From: Sulfurivermis fontis
GTDB lineage: Bacteria > Pseudomonadota > Gammaproteobacteria > Thiohalomonadales > Thiohalomonadaceae
Reading direction: 5' to 3'
DNA: 64,000 bases
Assembly: GCF_004001245.1 (NCBI RefSeq)
Contig: NZ_AP018724.1
Coordinates: 984,501-1,048,500, forward strand
Below the pieces are notes generated by a model, which was not told the DNA's origin, did no database searches, and saw only the letters and a program-made list of their open reading frames with translations. This document shows positions 45,876 to 52,874 of this stretch, piece by piece. Within the stretch, counting starts at the first letter, position 1; the number at the start of each line of letters is the position of its first letter. Both the position numbers and the translations under genes were made by a program.

Positions 45876-46091
45876 TCAACGCCCACGCAGCGCCTCGAAA
45901 CCACGGCGCAGCACGTAACTGCGGACCATCGACACCACCGTGAAGATCAGGCCGATTTGGAGGTTCTCCTGGACCGTGGCGTGCAGACCGAAGCGCGGGA
46001 ACACCATCCACTGGGTCGCCACCGCCACCCCATAGCCGACCAGCACATTGGCCACGGCCTCCACCAGCGACATCCATCGCGACTGCTTCAC
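45876..46091 (-). CDS. Small phage membrane protein (DUF7220-like)
   Basis: A 71-residue protein starting at GTG 46091 (GTGA overlap with the methyltransferase stop). It has two membrane helices (ANVLVGYGVAVATQWMVFP and LQIGLIFTVVSMVRSYV) joined by a short loop and ends with a basic RRGFEALRGR. This type is frequent next to phage methyltransferase or terminase genes. Function unknown. Confidence 0.7.
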   Translation of the reverse strand: MKQSRWMSLVEAVANVLVGYGVAVATQWMVFPRFGLHATVQENLQIGLIFTVVSMVRSYVLRRGFEALRGR

Positions 46092-47374
46092 AGCGACGCC
46101 TCTGCCTCTACCTCGGCGGCAGCCTCCGCCGTGCTGGCCAGGTCATCGAATTTCACCCCATCGGCTTCCCGCACCGCCTGCGCCCCGGCATAGTCCTGCC
46201 AGCGGCGCACGATCACGTCCGCGTACTTCGGGTCGAGTTCGATGAGCCGCGTCCGGCGCCCCGACTTTTCGGCGGCGATCAGGGTCGTGCCGCTGCCACC
46301 GAATGGATCGAGCACCACGTCGCCTGGGCGGCTGGAGTTGCGGATGGCCCGCTCGACCAGCTCCACTGGCTTCATCGTCGGGTGCAGGTCGTTCTTCTGC
46401 GGCTTGTTGAATTGCCACACGTCGCCCTGGTCGCGGTCGCCGCACCAGTGGCGATCCGCGCCCTCGGGCCAGCCGTAGAGGATCGGCTCGTACTGGCGCT
46501 GGTAGTCCGAGCGGCCCAGGGTGAAGGTGTTCTTGGCCCAGATGATGAACGTGGACCAGTGGCCGCCCGCCGCGCGGAAGGCCGCCTGCAGGGTGTCGAG
46601 CTCGCTCGACGACATGGCGACGTAGATCGCGCCGCGGGTGTGGGCAACGAGCAGCGACAGCGCGTCGTAGAGAAAGTCGTGAAAGCCTGCGCCGAGCGCG
46701 TCGTTGAGAATGGGACGGTGCTTGCCCCGCAGCTTGTCCTTGGCGCTGTTGGCGTAGTTCACGTTGTACGGCGGATCGGTGAAGGCCATGTCCGCCCGCT
46801 CGCCGTCCTGGAACAGCTGCGCGTAGGCCTCTGCCGCGGTCGCATCGCCGCAGACCAGACGGTGCTCACCCATGATCCAGACATCGCCAGGCCCGGACAC
46901 CGGCGACACCGGCGCCTCGGGGACGGCATCGTCCTCGGTCAACCCCTCGCGCGTGGTCTCCTCGCCCGCCAGCAGGTCGGCCAGGGCGTCGGCGTCGAAG
47001 CCGGTCAGGTCGAGGTCGAAGCCTTCGGCCTGCAAGTCCGAAAGCTCGATGCGCAGCAGCGCCTCGTCCCAGGTCGAAAGCTCCGCGAGCCGATTGTCGG
47101 CGAGCACCAGCGCCCGCCGTTGGGTGGGCGTCAGGTGATCGAGCACCACCACGGGCACCTGGGTAAGGCCGAGTTTGCGCGCTGCGGCCAGCCGGCCGTG
47201 GCCGGCGACGATCACGCCATCCGATCCGGCCAGGATCGGGTTGGTGAACCCGAACTCGGCGATGGAGGCGGCGATCTGGGCGATCTGCGCGTCCGAGTGC
47301 TGACGGGCGTTGCGGACGTAAGGGATGAGCTTGTCCGTTGGCCAGTGCTCGATCTTGTCGGCAAGCCAGTTCAT
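46088..47374 (-). CDS. ParB-like domain fused to DNA N6/N4 methyltransferase, copy 1
   Basis: A 428-residue protein. The N-terminal ParB/Srx-like domain (1 to about 100) has LIPYVRNARQHSDAQIAQIA and GVIVAGHGRLAAARKLGLTQ. The methyltransferase part has DPPYN as motif IV and, near the C-terminus, VLDPFGGSGTTLIAAE as motif I, the beta-class order. DPPY enzymes mostly make N6-adenine. ATG 47374 overlaps the stop of the related upstream gene (ATGA). It may protect phage DNA from host restriction. Confidence 0.9.
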   Translation of the reverse strand: MNWLADKIEHWPTDKLIPYVRNARQHSDAQIAQIAASIAEFGFTNPILAGSDGVIVAGHGRLAAARKLGLTQVPVVVLDHLTPTQRRALVLADNRLAELSTWDEALLRIELSDLQAEGFDLDLTGFDADALADLLAGEETTREGLTEDDAVPEAPVSPVSGPGDVWIMGEHRLVCGDATAAEAYAQLFQDGERADMAFTDPPYNVNYANSAKDKLRGKHRPILNDALGAGFHDFLYDALSLLVAHTRGAIYVAMSSSELDTLQAAFRAAGGHWSTFIIWAKNTFTLGRSDYQRQYEPILYGWPEGADRHWCGDRDQGDVWQFNKPQKNDLHPTMKPVELVERAIRNSSRPGDVVLDPFGGSGTTLIAAEKSGRRTRLIELDPKYADVIVRRWQDYAGAQAVREADGVKFDDLASTAEAAAEVEAEASL

Positions 47375-48903
47375 TTGCGATTGCGCCCCCATGGATTACG
47401 AATCGGGTTCTCCATCTTGGCCATGCGGTCGTTGAAAACGTCCGACAGGCGTTTTTTCACATCGCCATAGGTCGCCGTGACGCCTTCCGGCTCGCGCTCG
47501 GCCTTGACCGCCGCCCAGCTCTGGCCGGTCGTCTCCAGCACCGGCGCACGATCGGGGTGGGTCTTCATCCAGCGGATCACGGCCACATCGACATACTCGG
47601 GGGCAAGCTCGGCGGCACGCACGCACCGCCCGCAGGCCTCGCCCGCGAGGATCGTCGTGCCCGATCCCGAGAAGGGCTCGAACACGATCTCGCCTTCGTC
47701 GGTGTAGGCCTCCATGACGAACTTCGGCAGGCCGATGGGGAACACCGCCGGATGGTCGATCTCGCGGTCGCGGTCGATGGGTCCGCGCTGGCGAGTGACG
47801 GTGATGACGGAATCCGGGATGCGGAACTCTTGCGTCGGGAGTCCCGTGTGGCACCAGCCGGTGCGTGCTCCTTCCTTGCTCCTCAATCCGCCTGTGCTCG
47901 TGCCATCGGCGCGCAGGTGCACATCCTGCCCGGCGTATTTGCACGGCACGATCTTGTTGGGCTTGCGGATTGCGCGGTTGAAGTGGAACAGGAACTCGTG
48001 GCGCGGGGCCAGGCGCCCGACCCAGTCGCCGGGGACGGTGACGCCCTGGTCCCACACGTACCAGCCGAAGCGCCGCCAGCCTTGGCCCCGCATCCATTCG
48101 ATCCAACCGTCCCAGTACGGCTGCCACTCGCCGTCGCGATGGACCAGGCCGAGGTTGACCAGCATCTGGCCGTCCTCGCGCATGACACTCATCGCCGCGC
48201 CGAACACGCCCTGCATCAGCGCGTCCCAGTCCGCGATGCCGCCGGTGGTGTAGTTGCGCTGGTTGGCATAGGGCGGGCTGGTGAACAGCAGCGCCGCCTG
48301 CTCGCCAGCCATCAGGCGCTGCATGGCCGCGCGGTCGGAGGAGTCGGCGCAGATCAGGCGATGCTCGCCCAACAGCCAGACATCGCCCGGGCGGCTGATG
48401 ACGATCTTCGGCGGCGCGGGGATGTCCTCATCGTCGCGCGCCTGATCGTCCTCATCGGCCGTCGATGCGTCGGCGGGTTGAATATCCGCTTCGATCTCAT
48501 CGAGCAGCCGCTCGATCTCATCGTCACCCATGCCGGTGAGCGCCAGATCGAAGCCCGCCTCCGACAACTCGGCCAGCTCCAACGCCAGCATCTCTTCGTC
48601 CCACCCGGCGTCGAGAGCCAGGCGGTTGTCGGCGATCACGTAGGCGCGCTTCTGTGCCGGAGTGAGGTGGCTAAGCTCGATCACCGGCACCTCGGTGAGC
48701 CCGAGCTTGCGGGCCGCCGCCAGCCGCCCATGGCCGGCGATGATGCCGTTCGCTCCATCCACCAGGATCGGGTTGGTCCAGCCGAACTCGACGAGGCTGG
48801 CGGCGATACGCGCGATCTGCTCGTCGCTATGCGTGCGCGGATTGCGGGCGTAGGGGACCAGCGTCTCGACCTTGCGATATTCGACGCGCAGGGGTTCGGT
48901 CAT
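47371..48903 (-). CDS. ParB-like domain fused to DNA methyltransferase, copy 2
   Basis: A 510-residue relative of the neighbouring gene with the same two-domain layout (LVPYARNPRTHSDEQIARIA, NGIIAGHGRLAAARKLGLTE), but a different catalytic motif, SPPY (FTSPPYANQRNY), and FEPFSGSGTTILAGE as motif I. SPPY typically marks N4-cytosine or some N6-adenine enzymes, so the pair probably have different specificities. ATG 48903 is chosen because the preceding 30 in-frame codons are unlike any homologue. A terminator lies 60 bp upstream, so the gene may have its own promoter. Confidence 0.9.
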   Translation of the reverse strand: MTEPLRVEYRKVETLVPYARNPRTHSDEQIARIAASLVEFGWTNPILVDGANGIIAGHGRLAAARKLGLTEVPVIELSHLTPAQKRAYVIADNRLALDAGWDEEMLALELAELSEAGFDLALTGMGDDEIERLLDEIEADIQPADASTADEDDQARDDEDIPAPPKIVISRPGDVWLLGEHRLICADSSDRAAMQRLMAGEQAALLFTSPPYANQRNYTTGGIADWDALMQGVFGAAMSVMREDGQMLVNLGLVHRDGEWQPYWDGWIEWMRGQGWRRFGWYVWDQGVTVPGDWVGRLAPRHEFLFHFNRAIRKPNKIVPCKYAGQDVHLRADGTSTGGLRSKEGARTGWCHTGLPTQEFRIPDSVITVTRQRGPIDRDREIDHPAVFPIGLPKFVMEAYTDEGEIVFEPFSGSGTTILAGEACGRCVRAAELAPEYVDVAVIRWMKTHPDRAPVLETTGQSWAAVKAEREPEGVTATYGDVKKRLSDVFNDRMAKMENPIRNPWGRNRK

Positions 48904-48960
48904 CGGGAAACGAAGTTTCGGTGAAGGTTCGTGCGGCGTGGCCGCGTGTCGTCGGAGCCA

Positions 48961-48988
48961 AAACAAAAACCCGCCACGAGGGCGGGTC
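48961..48988 (-). terminator. Rho-independent terminator ending the early operon
   Basis: Minus strand stem ACCCGCC / GGCGGGT (48970-48976 and 48982-48988) with a 5-nt loop, followed by TTTTTGTTTT. It separates the DUF6362-like gene and replication genes from the two methyltransferase genes, which therefore need a separate promoter or read-through. Confidence 0.78.
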
Positions 48989-48999
48989 AGCAAAGGGTG

Positions 49000-49314: not shown

Positions 49315-49710
49315 TCATGAAAGGCTGGCCACGGTCCGGCGGGTCTGCTCGTTCAGACGGCAGGCGACGATGTCGAGCGCCTTCTGCCACCGCCGCCAGG
49401 CCGTAGTGCGGTCGCAGCCGAAGCGCCGGCAGATCTCCCGCCACCCGCGTTCCTCGGCGCGCATCCAGACGAGATGGCGCTGCTCCTCGGTGAGCCACAG
49501 CACCCAGCGCATCGTCTCCTCCATGCGGTCGATGGCGGCCGGGTCGGGCGGAAAGCGGTACAGCACGTCGTCGCCCGAGTAGGTCTCCCACGGCTGGCGC
49601 AGGATGGCCGGCCAGGTGTTGAAGTAGCCCTGGACGCGTACCGGCGGCAGACGCCGCGCGGTCTGGGCGGCCTCCCGGAAGCGCTCGGCGACGTCGTCAA
49701 CGCTCCACAT
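49315..49710 (-). CDS. DUF6362-like phage HTH protein
   Basis: A 131-residue protein: MWSVDDVAERFREAAQTARR, RVQGYFNTWPAILRQPWETY, then a helix-turn-helix region (WREICRRFGCDRTTAWRRWQ) near the C-terminus. Such proteins are common in prophages next to RuvC-like and helicase genes and resemble sigma-4-like or terminase-small-like DNA-binding folds. Exact role unknown. It overlaps the preceding stop region by 14 bp. Confidence 0.78.
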   Translation of the reverse strand: MWSVDDVAERFREAAQTARRLPPVRVQGYFNTWPAILRQPWETYSGDDVLYRFPPDPAAIDRMEETMRWVLWLTEEQRHLVWMRAEERGWREICRRFGCDRTTAWRRWQKALDIVACRLNEQTRRTVASLS

Positions 49711-49912
49711 GGCCGTCTCCCTGGCGACCGTAGAGCCGCTCGCCGATGCGCTTCACCAGCTCCCGCTCGATCCAGTCGAGCCGCTCGTCGTCGAGCGAGA
49801 CCACCAGGATGCCTTGGTCCCGCCAACCGTCGCGTTTTATGGCATCGACGTCCGGGGGAGTCGGTTGCAGGCGCCCGAGGGGGCAACGATAGTGGGGGCT
49901 GGGTGCATTCAT
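49697..49912 (-). CDS. Small phage protein of unknown function
   Basis: A 71-residue protein, MNAPSPHYRCPLGRLQPTPP, DVDAIKRDGWRDQGILVVSL, ending RIGERLYGRQGDGHVER. The phrase GWRDQGILVVSLDDERLDW is typical of a short phage protein found between the RuvC-like and DUF6362-like genes. ATG 49912 overlaps the RuvC-like stop by 4 bp. Confidence 0.7.
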   Translation of the reverse strand: MNAPSPHYRCPLGRLQPTPPDVDAIKRDGWRDQGILVVSLDDERLDWIERELVKRIGERLYGRQGDGHVER

Positions 49913-50688
49913 GCCGGCATCTCCTGCGTCGTGATCGCCCACATCAGCAGCGCCAGTGCGTCGGCCTCGTTGTCGTCCTCGGGCCGGAAACCCAGGGCCT
50001 GCATGGCGGCCACCATCGCTTGCTTGCCGGCGTTGCCCTTGCCGGTGGCGTGCTTCTTGATCGTGCCCACCGGAACGCCCTGGTACGGGATGCCGTGGTG
50101 CTCGCACCAGGCGGTCAGCTGGGCCATGAAGCCGCCGTAGGCGTGGGCGGCATCCACTCCGGCGTGGCGGCGCACCTCCTCGAAGTACACCGCATCCAGC
50201 CCGTCCGCCGATTGTTTGACCTCGGTGAGCCAGCGCTTGAAGCGCAGGTAACGCATGCCGCCGCCCTCGAAGCGCTGGGGCTTGAAGCACTCCGAGCCGC
50301 TGGTGATGGAGCCGTCACGGCCGAGCAGCGCCCAGCCGGTCCGCGTGCCGAGGTCGAGGCTCAGGATGGCCGTGCCCGGTTCACGATCCCGACCGTCGAT
50401 GCCGGGCAGACCCCTTCGGGTCGGGGGAGAGGACACGACGTGGTCCTCTCCCCCCGAAGGGGGGAGGGAGTTTTCGCCAACTGGGAAATCCCCGAAAGGT
50501 AAGTAAAAACATGGTGTTAGCTCAGTTGGCAAATTGGCAGGCGTTGCCAACTGCCAACTTGCCGACTGATCTGTAATGCATTGATTTTTTTGATTTTCCA
50601 GTTGGCAGACGTTTGCCAACTGAATCCAGTTGGCAAAATTCGGGTTCCAGTTGGCAGAATTTTTGCCAACTTGCCTGCGCGTGTTCAT
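49909..50688 (-). CDS. RuvC-like Holliday junction resolvase
   Basis: The RNase H-like core starts ILSLDLGTRTGWALLG (first Asp in SLDLG), with the catalytic Glu in VYFEEVRRHAG and Asp residues in GFRPEDDNEADALAL. These form a complete RuvC-type site of about 150 residues. Such phage proteins resolve junctions and clear branched DNA before packaging. The frame is open up to ATG 50688, which overlaps the primase stop, but the first 90 codons run through the iteron array and a hairpin and are not protein-like. The real start is probably downstream, perhaps GTG near 50436. Confidence 0.78.
   Translation of the reverse strand: MNTRRQVGKNSANWNPNFANWIQLANVCQLENQKNQCITDQSASWQLATPANLPTELTPCFYLPFGDFPVGENSLPPSGGEDHVVSSPPTRRGLPGIDGRDREPGTAILSLDLGTRTGWALLGRDGSITSGSECFKPQRFEGGGMRYLRFKRWLTEVKQSADGLDAVYFEEVRRHAGVDAAHAYGGFMAQLTAWCEHHGIPYQGVPVGTIKKHATGKGNAGKQAMVAAMQALGFRPEDDNEADALALLMWAITTQEMPA
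50411..50462. repeat. Bipartite inverted repeat
   Basis: GGGGGAGAGGAC (50423-50434) pairs with GTCCTCTCCCCC (50443-50454), and CCCCTTCG (50411-50418) with CGAAGGGG (50455-50462), a long hairpin with one 4-nt bulge. The sequence resembles intergenic repeats common in high-GC proteobacteria. It lies inside the RuvC-like reading frame. Confidence 0.65.
50476..50671. repeat. Iteron-like GCCAACT array; candidate replication origin
   Basis: The heptamer GCCAACT occurs nine times exactly in either orientation (starting 50476, 50524, 50546, 50553, 50600, 50615, 50628, 50649, 50665), with two one-mismatch variants (50532, 50561). An AT-rich tract with TTGATTTTTTTGATTTT (50581-50597) lies in the middle. 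The array follows the primase-helicase gene directly. Dense iterons with an AT-rich unwinding tract beside a replication gene are typical of phage and plasmid origins. No replication initiator of the O type is evident, so the binding protein is unknown. Confidence 0.72.
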
Positions 50689-52874
50689 GCGTCCTCCTGC
50701 GGGTCGATGAAGTCGTCTTGGTAAACCCACACCTCGGGGTTCTCGACCGGCAATGCGGCCCCCGATTGCGGGCATTTGAAGTGGGTAGGTAATACCGGTA
50801 GCTCGCGCAGCGGCACTTCGCCGGTGTCGGGATCGGGCTCGCCCGCCGGTATGCGCAGCACCATGCCCTCGACGCACAGGTAGCCGTACTTGGTGCGGCC
50901 GATGCGTGGCAGGCCATAGTCCTGTGCGTTGCGGAAGTACTTGATGTAACCCTGGGTCGAAAGCGCAGAGAGGCGCTCGCGGATGGTGCGCTCGCCGCCC
51001 AGACCGGCCTTGCCTTCGAAGGATTCGGCGAACTGGTTGGCGGTGTAGCAGCGCCCCTGGGCCGCCTCGTCGAACAGGATCTGCAGGATGGCGTCGCGCT
51101 TGCGCCGGCGCTCGGCATCGAGGCGCTCGCCATAGTCCCTCATCACCAGCCGCGCGTTGGCATCCACCTCCCGCCACTCGCCCTGGATCTTGTCCACGTG
51201 CATCGACGGGATGGCGGCACCGTTGCGCAGCTCGAAGAAGAGCTGGCGCGTGGTGCGCGTCTCGTCGGGTCGAAACAGCAGCATGCCGGTGGTGTAGTAG
51301 CCGCGCAGACTCCCGGCCCCGGCCAGCGCCTGGAACGGGTCCTCCTCGAACTGCTTCTTGCCGAGCTTCTTGGTGTGGTGGGCCAGCACGACGCCGGCGT
51401 CCGGGTTCACCGCGTCGCGCAGGCGCTCGACCCGCTGTGACAGGAAGTAGAGCATCGCCGCGTTGTCGTTCTCGCCGCCGGCCTCCCCGCCGTCGAAGAC
51501 GTTGCGGATGGGGTCGATGGCGATGATGTCCGGCAGCTCGTCGCCGAAGGCCTGCTTGATCGCGGGGATGACCTGGGCGAGGCCGGCGTCGTCCAGGATC
51601 AGCCGCAGCTGCGGCGTGGCGACGAAGTTGACGCGCGCTTCACCGATGCGACTGGGCGGTAGGCGGATCTCCTTCACACGCTCGCGCAGGTAGTGGTACT
51701 GCACCTCGGCTTGCAGATAGAACACCCGCAGCGGGCGCGGCGGCGTCATGGCGAGGAAGGTGGCGCCCGCCGCCATGTGCGTGAGCCATGCGAGCAGAAA
51801 GTCACTCTTGCCGACCTTGGGCGCACCGCCGAATACCAGCAGGCCGCCGGGTGTGAGCACGCGCGGTGCGATGAGATCGGGCGGCAACGGCGAGTCGTCG
51901 TCGAGCAGCGCACCCAGGGTGAAGGTCGGCAGTGTCGGCGCCGCCCCCTTGACGACCCTGCGCTCGCCCTCACGAATGAAGGTGGCGCAGTCGAAGCCCT
52001 CGGCCACGGCATCGGCCGCGTCCCACTTGTCCGGTTTATCCATGGGCGGCACGAGGATGGCGACCGACGCCGCGCCCGCCGTCACGCAGGCACGGGCGGC
52101 GTTCTCCGCGTAGTCCCAGCCCGGGACGTCGCGATCCGGCCAGACCAGCACGTGCTTGCCCGCGAGCGGCGTCCAGTCGGTCTTGTCGATCGGCGCCCGC
52201 GCGCCGTTCATGGCCGTGGTCGCCGTGATGCCCGTCCCGATCAGGGCGCAAGCCGCCTTCTCGCCCTCGACCAGCACCACGTCACGCGCATTGGCCACGG
52301 CCGGCAGGTTGTAGAGCGGACGCGGATCGGGGGCGCGCCACATGCGGGCGCGCACGTCCCAGGGGCGGTACTCCTTGCCGGTGGGCGGGTCGTAGCGGTA
52401 GACGCAGGCGATCAGTCTGCCATCCGCCGTGAGGTAGTCCCACTTGGCGGTATAAGGGCCGAGTTCGTCGACGGGGGCGCTGCGGGCATTCGATCGCTCC
52501 GGGGTGTGACCGATGGATGGTGCAAGCCCGAGCCATTGACGGATTTCCTCCGCGATCCGGGGGAAGTCGTGCCGGGCGGAGAGTCCACGGGAACGGGCCC
52601 ACAGATCGATGACGTCGCCGCCTTCGTCGGTCGCGAAATCCTTCCACAGCCCACGCCGTTCACCATCGAGCTCGACCACCAGGCTCTTGCCGCGATTGCC
52701 GTCGATATCGCCGACATAGAATTTACCGCCGCGGATGCGGCCCTGCGGGAACAGGTAGAGCAGCACCGCCTCCAGGCGCTCGAGCAGGCCTCGGCGCAGC
52801 GAATCGGTATCGGGGAGTGCCATTCCCTGCTGTTCGGGTGCGTCGTTGTAGTCGAGCCAAATGACGTCTGCCAT
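50685..52874 (-). CDS. Phage primase-helicase (TOPRIM plus RecA-like ATPase)
   Basis: A 729-residue protein. The N-terminal region (about 40-115) contains FYVGDIDGNRGKSLVVELDG and WKDFATDEGGDVIDLW, typical of phage primase N-domains. The TOPRIM motifs are VEGEKAA (202-208) and WPDRD (245-249). The C-terminal RecA-like module has Walker A GGAPKVGKS (349-357) and IIAIDPIRN as Walker B, with HHTKK after it. A winged-helix region follows. It should prime and unwind phage DNA. ATG 52874 shares a base with the nuclease stop. Confidence 0.9.
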   Translation of the reverse strand: MADVIWLDYNDAPEQQGMALPDTDSLRRGLLERLEAVLLYLFPQGRIRGGKFYVGDIDGNRGKSLVVELDGERRGLWKDFATDEGGDVIDLWARSRGLSARHDFPRIAEEIRQWLGLAPSIGHTPERSNARSAPVDELGPYTAKWDYLTADGRLIACVYRYDPPTGKEYRPWDVRARMWRAPDPRPLYNLPAVANARDVVLVEGEKAACALIGTGITATTAMNGARAPIDKTDWTPLAGKHVLVWPDRDVPGWDYAENAARACVTAGAASVAILVPPMDKPDKWDAADAVAEGFDCATFIREGERRVVKGAAPTLPTFTLGALLDDDSPLPPDLIAPRVLTPGGLLVFGGAPKVGKSDFLLAWLTHMAAGATFLAMTPPRPLRVFYLQAEVQYHYLRERVKEIRLPPSRIGEARVNFVATPQLRLILDDAGLAQVIPAIKQAFGDELPDIIAIDPIRNVFDGGEAGGENDNAAMLYFLSQRVERLRDAVNPDAGVVLAHHTKKLGKKQFEEDPFQALAGAGSLRGYYTTGMLLFRPDETRTTRQLFFELRNGAAIPSMHVDKIQGEWREVDANARLVMRDYGERLDAERRRKRDAILQILFDEAAQGRCYTANQFAESFEGKAGLGGERTIRERLSALSTQGYIKYFRNAQDYGLPRIGRTKYGYLCVEGMVLRIPAGEPDPDTGEVPLRELPVLPTHFKCPQSGAALPVENPEVWVYQDDFIDPQEDA

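Follow-up and report, generated by a model that had tools for sequence, protein, structure and literature searches.

In phage lambda, the iterons lie inside the O gene, and in phage P4 a second repeat region, crr, is required. In the geminiviruses, according to a title of 2001, iterons were reportedly matched to initiator residues by a comparative approach. The closest described systems include the P4 alpha protein, the RSF1010 origin, and the origins of pRN1 and Bordetella phage BIP-1. As set out in PMC4234260, P4 alpha is a single polypeptide containing a Toprim-type primase, a helicase, and a winged helix that binds the origin repeats. For the oriV of RSF1010 (IncQ), the same text describes RepC iterons, the RepA helicase, and the RepB' primase with the ssiA and ssiB stem-loops. 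In pRN1 and BIP-1, a stem-loop, the sequence of which varies while its structure stays, is located right downstream of the gene for a primase-helicase with a C-terminal winged helix; these enzymes combine an archaeo-eukaryotic primase with an SF3 helicase, and no iterons are reported for them in that source (PMC4234260).

In this work, a heptamer array proposed as a candidate phage replication origin was analyzed in the window (the whole 64-kb stretch of DNA under study) and at the corresponding place in related loci. The features of the region are listed below, with primase-helicase residues counted from 52982, which gives a 765-residue open frame.

49909-50688, minus strand: RuvC-like resolvase open frame; its ATG overlaps the primase-helicase stop, and the frame spans the array and the hairpin
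50411-50462, no strand assigned: GC-rich hairpin, inner arms 50423-50434 and 50443-50454, outer arms 50411-50420 and 50453-50462
50476-50482, plus strand: iteron GCCAACT, exact word, solitary, outside the right block
50524-50530, minus strand: iteron GCCAACT, exact word
50532-50538, minus strand: degenerate iteron, one mismatch, from the sequence
50546-50552, plus strand: iteron GCCAACT, exact word
50553-50559, plus strand: iteron GCCAACT, exact word
50561-50567, plus strand: degenerate iteron GCCGACT, one mismatch, from the sequence
50574-50586, minus strand: IHF consensus site AATCAATGCATTA, separating the two iteron blocks and agreeing with WATCAANNNNTTR at all 9 specified positions
50600-50606, minus strand: iteron GCCAACT, exact word
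50615-50621, plus strand: iteron GCCAACT, exact word
50628-50634, minus strand: iteron GCCAACT, exact word
50649-50655, minus strand: iteron GCCAACT, exact word
50665-50671, plus strand: iteron GCCAACT, exact word, closest to the primase-helicase gene
50685-52874, minus strand: primase-helicase gene, 729 aa if the ATG at 52874 is the start, as inferred
50688-51149, minus strand: C-terminal winged-helix domain, residues 612-765, predicted by AlphaFold2 (pLDDT 86.4, pTM 0.78)
50952-50993, minus strand: predicted recognition helix, residues 664-677 (AlphaFold2, column scan)
50988-50990 and 50979-50981, minus strand: codons of Arg665 and Arg668, respectively, within the predicted recognition helix

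The original prediction described nine exact and two near-exact GCCAACT heptamers in both orientations within 196 bp, around an AT-rich tract and immediately after the primase-helicase gene, at a density beyond chance, and the sequence bears it out on each of these points. Nine exact copies, five on the plus and four on the minus strand, and two one-mismatch copies lie at 50476-50671; the AT-rich tract is located at about 50581-50597, and the first heptamer follows the primase-helicase stop (50685-50687, minus strand) after 13 nt. At the local composition, nine copies per 420 nt correspond to a Poisson log10 P of -16.9. The entire window contains 18 exact copies, compared with 7.1 (sd 2.5) in shuffled sequences, and thus half of all copies fall within 196 bp; the other nine are dispersed, close to the 7 expected for the window, and form no second cluster there. 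The GC skew across the window does not switch at the array, and in an Rfam scan of 49500-51500 nothing rose above the threshold; the weaker matches, to families of animals and plants, were taken as chance. The IHF consensus, the GC-rich hairpin, and the open frame of the next gene across the array are additions to the original prediction.

The window genome is a 3.25-Mb single contig that carries a second copy of the region 1.9 Mb away. Identity between this copy (G000:C1:2961510-2962108, L002) and the region in the window is 95% over some 600 bp and 100% over a 211-bp stretch that includes the array; they are probably two prophages that share the same origin. Among 95 genomes searched, a DNA match to the 211-bp stretch was found in two, the window genome itself and another genome from its class, as would be expected for a prophage. 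The neighboring genes match a Cas4-domain exonuclease, a DNA helicase, a Sak4-like annealing protein, and the RuvC-like resolvase. Two consecutive frames at 46088-48993 have a ParB-like N-terminal region and a DNA methylase-like region; the first (46088-47392) was matched in Pfam, and the second (47371-48993) was judged from the look of its translation.

The primase-helicase of the window matches the PHROG family "DNA primase/helicase" (2.2e-67) and the Pfam domain AAA_25. Pfam detects no Toprim domain in the window protein; Toprim_2 is just above the cut-off in one homolog (L164) and Toprim is below it in another (L043). For the helicase domain, taken as a predicted model, the best fold match is RepA of RSF1010 (1olo; Z 21.7, rmsd 2.8, 227 aligned). 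The C-terminus carries the motif GLG-x-x-[665]-[ST]-I-[668]-x-R, and AlphaFold2 models residues 664-677 as a single helix within a small domain at the C-terminus. In a structure search with this isolated domain, the best matches were, by title, largely winged-helix chains at Z 5.7-7.3, all of them below 8, the range where the tool warns of merely common arrangements; the origin-binding domain of P4 alpha was not among the best 50 matches listed, which excludes nothing. The Pfam winged-HTH family HTH_65 matches the window protein weakly, below the cut-off, and profile searches of PDB sequences returned nothing convincing (one gave a match at E 0.27, the other none at 0.01). Judged by these domain matches and models, a primase, a helicase, and a C-terminal winged helix are united in one polypeptide.

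In this respect the protein resembles P4 alpha, with the binding of repeats inferred here from covariation (see below). However, its helicase is of the RepA/RecA type (AAA_25), whereas that of P4 belongs to SF3, and its array follows the gene directly, in both orientations and with an IHF site. Since the helicase is RSF1010-RepA-like and not SF3, the protein is not a member of the P4 alpha group; a second cluster of the word, as a possible counterpart of crr, was not found in the window. The likeness to RSF1010 includes the RepA-type helicase, by best structural match of the predicted model, and repeats with an adjoining hairpin, but the putative initiator, the helicase, and the primase are one protein here, and heptamers in both orientations stand in contrast to the repeats of a separate RepC. 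Neither a separate RepC-type initiator nor, in agreement with the original prediction, an O-like one was found among the ten proteins scanned against Pfam and PHROGs. With pRN1 and BIP-1 the locus shares an origin-like stem-loop downstream of a primase-helicase with a C-terminal winged helix; it differs in the AAA_25 helicase, the Toprim domain of the homologs, and the presence of iterons in addition to the hairpin. As in lambda, iterons lie beside an AT-rich tract in a phage early region, although the array here comes after the primase-helicase stop.

The family of loci was gathered by scans with the primase-helicase and four alignments of relatives, with the best 80 places taken per scan, so that the set leans to close relatives. 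At least 78 genome loci and at least 341 viral locus ids, many of which repeat one contig, were obtained. Of 425 loci, 400 included the end of the primase-helicase gene followed by 200 nt or more, and removal of redundancy left 198, both copies from the window genome among them. The array test searched the 330 nt that follow the primase-helicase stop, de novo, for a 7-mer that is over-represented. Absence of the array from close relatives with the same replication genes would have counted against the original prediction; an array was found at the same place in 192 of the 198 loci, compared with 0 of 196 control stretches inside the primase gene and 1 of 161 at 900-1240 nt downstream. The test failed in L024, where three copies are left, and in L034, L035, L070, L270, and L293. 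Two of the loci with no detectable array, L035 and L270, have Ser at position 668; their read-out is perhaps lost or altered past recognition.

The repeated word itself varies by lineage. In the window it is AGTTGGCA, with the reverse complement TGCCAACT, and elsewhere it is AGATTGCA, AGTTTGCA, AGATGGCA, AGTCGGCA, AGTGGGCA, or AGAATCCA; further lineage words are AGTTTCCA, AGAATTCA, AGTTGCTG, and AGTTTGGA. A word that drifts between lineages at a constant place suggests a binder whose specificity drifts along with it. In the L145-L148 lineage the leader is longer and the exact repeats number 13 or 14, which looks like an upstream duplication of the left block.

The layout is also conserved: two iteron blocks with an IHF site between them, then commonly a solitary iteron and usually a hairpin. 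The IHF consensus used is WATCAANNNNTTR, as given in PMC10380432; the motif was first noticed by eye and tested afterwards. The best match reached 9 of 9 positions in 71 of the 192 arrays (1.4 expected from dinucleotide shuffles) and at least 8 of 9 in 148 (36 expected), and stayed at 7 of 9 or below in 44, among them L039, L046, and L064 (6 of 9) and L051 and L067 (7 of 9). Of the 148 sites, 133 share one orientation and lie at +60 to +139 or, in the longer-leader group, at +240 to +249. Both IHF subunits are encoded in the host genome, with matches above the cut-off. The solitary repeat stands 46-50 bp past the right block in 27 of 37 layouts (counted by eye). The hairpin scored z < -2 in 59 of 82 diverse loci (82 of the 83 used for the tree described below), several long-leader loci being assessed at a stretch that overlaps the array; the best stems have 59 different arm starts.

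The binder of the array can be approached through covariation between the word and the protein. The register of the word was fixed by A1, G2, T4, C7, and A8, with bases 5 and 6 left out, and the last 600 residues were scanned by column in the 186 loci (effective number 52) with a word and 540 aa or more. Base 5 has its highest-ranking column at residue 668 (normalised information 0.44; second column 0.37) and base 6 at residue 665 (0.65; second column 0.44), although common descent gives such a scan a high background, so that rank alone proves little. The other six bases (1-4, 7, and 8) have their best-scoring columns in other parts of the protein, with scores as high as 0.62 at base 4 (R625); the 0.89 of base 1 is owed to one deviant row. 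The pairings are Arg with G and Asn with T for position 668 and base 5, and Arg with G and Ser with C for position 665 and base 6. Contacts of Arg with guanine and of Asn with adenine, the partner of T, are usual in the major groove. This pattern, too, was first noticed by eye and tested afterwards.

In the 83 diverse rows, the set left after near-duplicates were removed for the tree, Arg668 occurs with G5 in 43 rows and with another base in seven, and none of the 33 rows without Arg668 has G5. Arg665 occurs with G6 in 63 of 63 rows; of the 20 rows without Arg665, 14 lack G6. Six of the seven Arg668 exceptions (L054, L359, L268, L280, L286, and L288) have T5; all carry Asp or His at position 665 and belong to one clade, in which the putative code must be read differently. 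The seventh, L218 with the word AGCTTGGC, is by eye a register error of the script, and both G's are kept. A Shinella plasmid outside the set (L428) has His665 with Arg668, and the expected word is absent from it.

A quick tree built without the winged helix, 29 of the 80 inner branches of which are starred, was used to count independent changes. Six independent pairs on well-supported branches differ at residue 668; base 5 is concordant in 5.5 of them on average and opposite in 0, and the sign tests are small (median p 0.03, reciprocal 0.06). In the control, residue 668 set against base 6, no difference is seen in five or six of the six pairs, among those listed. Residue 665 offers one supported pair, which fails to separate base 6 from base 5. 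In a linkage control over 156 loci, the best column of RuvC, encoded on the other side of the array, reached 0.26 for base 5, compared with 0.52 for residue 668; for base 6 it reached 0.53, nearly as good as the 0.57 of residue 665. A natural pair of loci, L173 and L174, encodes proteins that are 94.6% identical over 560 aa; the former has Asn668 with AGTTTGCA and the latter Arg668 with AGTTGGCA. Their DNA identity is 80% in the helix and 88% in the 60 nt after it, rises to 97-100% in the final 180 nt of the gene, and falls to 67% in the array. The helix and the array thus differ across near-unchanged DNA, which one simple exchange of neighboring DNA does not explain.

Because the word covaries with residues 665 and 668 of the recognition helix, the primase-helicase is the likely binder, and we consider it very probable that it binds the array via its winged helix. 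The original prediction had called for a new binding protein, perhaps the primase-helicase, an AlpA-like or an SSB-like protein; the first of these candidates gains specific support from the ranking of 665 and 668 and from the L173/L174 pair, whereas "new" was too strong a word. That the array is the replication origin of the phage, with the primase-helicase encoded just upstream as its initiator, is a less certain step than the binding but still appears probable from the comparative evidence: the original reading as an origin candidate is supported by the presence of the array in nearly all of the relatives and by an IHF site and a hairpin that fit an origin. Evidence on the other side comprises the breakdown of the code in the Asp/His665 clade, the six loci with no array, the small number of independent contrasts, the high background of the column ranking, the RuvC column for base 6, the arrays with poor IHF matches, and the GC skew.

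Covariation tells who binds and not what for, and the GC skew gives no sign of an origin at the array. Both points would suit binding for control, where the primase-helicase uses the array as a copy-number (handcuffing), partition, or incompatibility site and replication starts elsewhere in the phage. Nevertheless, the IHF site, the AT-rich tract, and the hairpin are arranged as in known origins, and the window offers no second cluster of the word, so that we regard such a purely controlling role as unlikely. Less probable again is an operator for a transcription regulator, such as the AlpA-like protein or a repressor, that would control the downstream resolvase and methylase genes. A stretch between two genes with repeated heptamers and palindromic pairs would also fit an operator, and the array does precede the resolvase gene; however, the word tracks the recognition helix of the primase-helicase, and the flanking genes lie on one strand, the start codon of one overlapping the stop of the previous one.

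The resolvase frame runs through the array, and its resolvase-like part covers about 49909-50376. In a survey of 190 loci, the resolvase motif was found in 148 and was missing in 42; the frame was open from the primase stop to the motif in 111 of the 148 and broken in 37, while each of the two other sense frames averages 2.5 stops. In 69 of the 111 open frames an in-frame ATG or GTG lies at most 120 nt from the motif, and the resolvase may therefore start there. Substitutions by codon position, counted over 479 non-independent pairs, are flat in the array (2447/3248/2986) and strongly biased to the third position in RuvC (1586/584/7352), with a mild third-position excess in the hairpin part (807/615/1413); the flat distribution indicates that the array is maintained as DNA. 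It is very improbable that the repeats are coding, as an N-terminal extension of the resolvase or as an RNA structure: the mostly open frame and the mild excess in the hairpin part would agree with such a role, but the codon-position test speaks against a coding repeat, the frame is broken in a quarter of the loci, and the repeats occur in both orientations. A role of the hairpin in the sense-strand RNA gained no support either, with no excess of G-T over A-C mismatches in the stems (27 vs 45). Arm-type sites together with IHF are also found in phage attachment sites, but a site for recombination (attP-like, with arm sites and IHF) or for packaging (pac) is hardly to be expected here either: the adjacent genes are replication and recombination genes, and the binder indicated by covariation is the primase-helicase.

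Related modules outside the window place the candidate origin in a wider context. RepA of phage WO of Wolbachia (HQ906662, L164) is a homologous primase-helicase with 33.6% identity. Repeats of AGTTGGCA and AGATGGCA directly follow its gene, with an IHF match of 9 of 9 and a solitary site 49 bp on, and Arg is present at both code positions of the helix; in contrast to the window, phage WO is AT-rich, and the resolvase in HQ906662 is about 3 kb away. In phage AcaML1 (L163), relationship to the window protein is confined to the N-terminal half of the primase, the helicase half being of an unrelated D5 type; its array word, CCGTCAGA, is unrelated to the window word. The Agarilytica plasmid pSU2 (NZ_CP021746.1; L426/L429/L430), which is circular, 71,672 bp long, and has no phage structural genes in its annotation, also carries the module; there the C-terminus is another one, and the array, made of GTTCCC words, is weaker. 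The modules of AcaML1 and pSU2, like the RepA-type fold of the window helicase, count in favor of the proposed origin and initiator. None of nine other pSU2 proteins scanned matched a replication initiator in Pfam; the gene table is incomplete and PLSDB lists a replicon type, and the plasmid may hold another replicon. No description of the array, the code, or the origin was found in the open-access literature, outside which most subscription journals lie, and PMC9203015, on phage WO, when searched gave no word starting with "iteron".

The best reading of these comparisons is that initiator, helicase, and primase would be one polypeptide that works in a P4-alpha-like way with a helicase of the RSF1010-RepA type. 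In the proposed mechanism, several copies of the primase-helicase would bind the inverted and direct heptamers via their C-terminal winged helices, and host IHF would bend the DNA between the blocks, so that the two iteron clusters meet. The AT-rich DNA nearby would then open, and the attached RepA-type helicase would load there directly, needing neither a separate initiator nor a loader. The first strands would be started by the primase part of this polypeptide, perhaps at the hairpin, as at the ssi sites of RSF1010.

A more general proposal, for and against which we see the case as evenly balanced, is that a large family of phages, from prophages of Luteimonas/Thermomonas and Burkholderiales to phage WO of Wolbachia, uses an undescribed one-polypeptide initiator, in which a RepA/RecA-type helicase has its own origin-reading winged helix. 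Its two-position code would be accompanied by swapping of the helix and the array as coupled parts, giving many replication specificities. In metagenomes, the array can serve for finding and typing the replication module. If the proposal is true, the origin and the initiator would be named together for a widespread phage family, phage WO of Wolbachia included, and the residue-to-base pairings would be open to testing with natural variants. It would also show a replicative helicase of the RepA type locating its own origin with no separate initiator, and would offer a set of natural data on how the specificities of an initiator and a multi-copy binding array change jointly.
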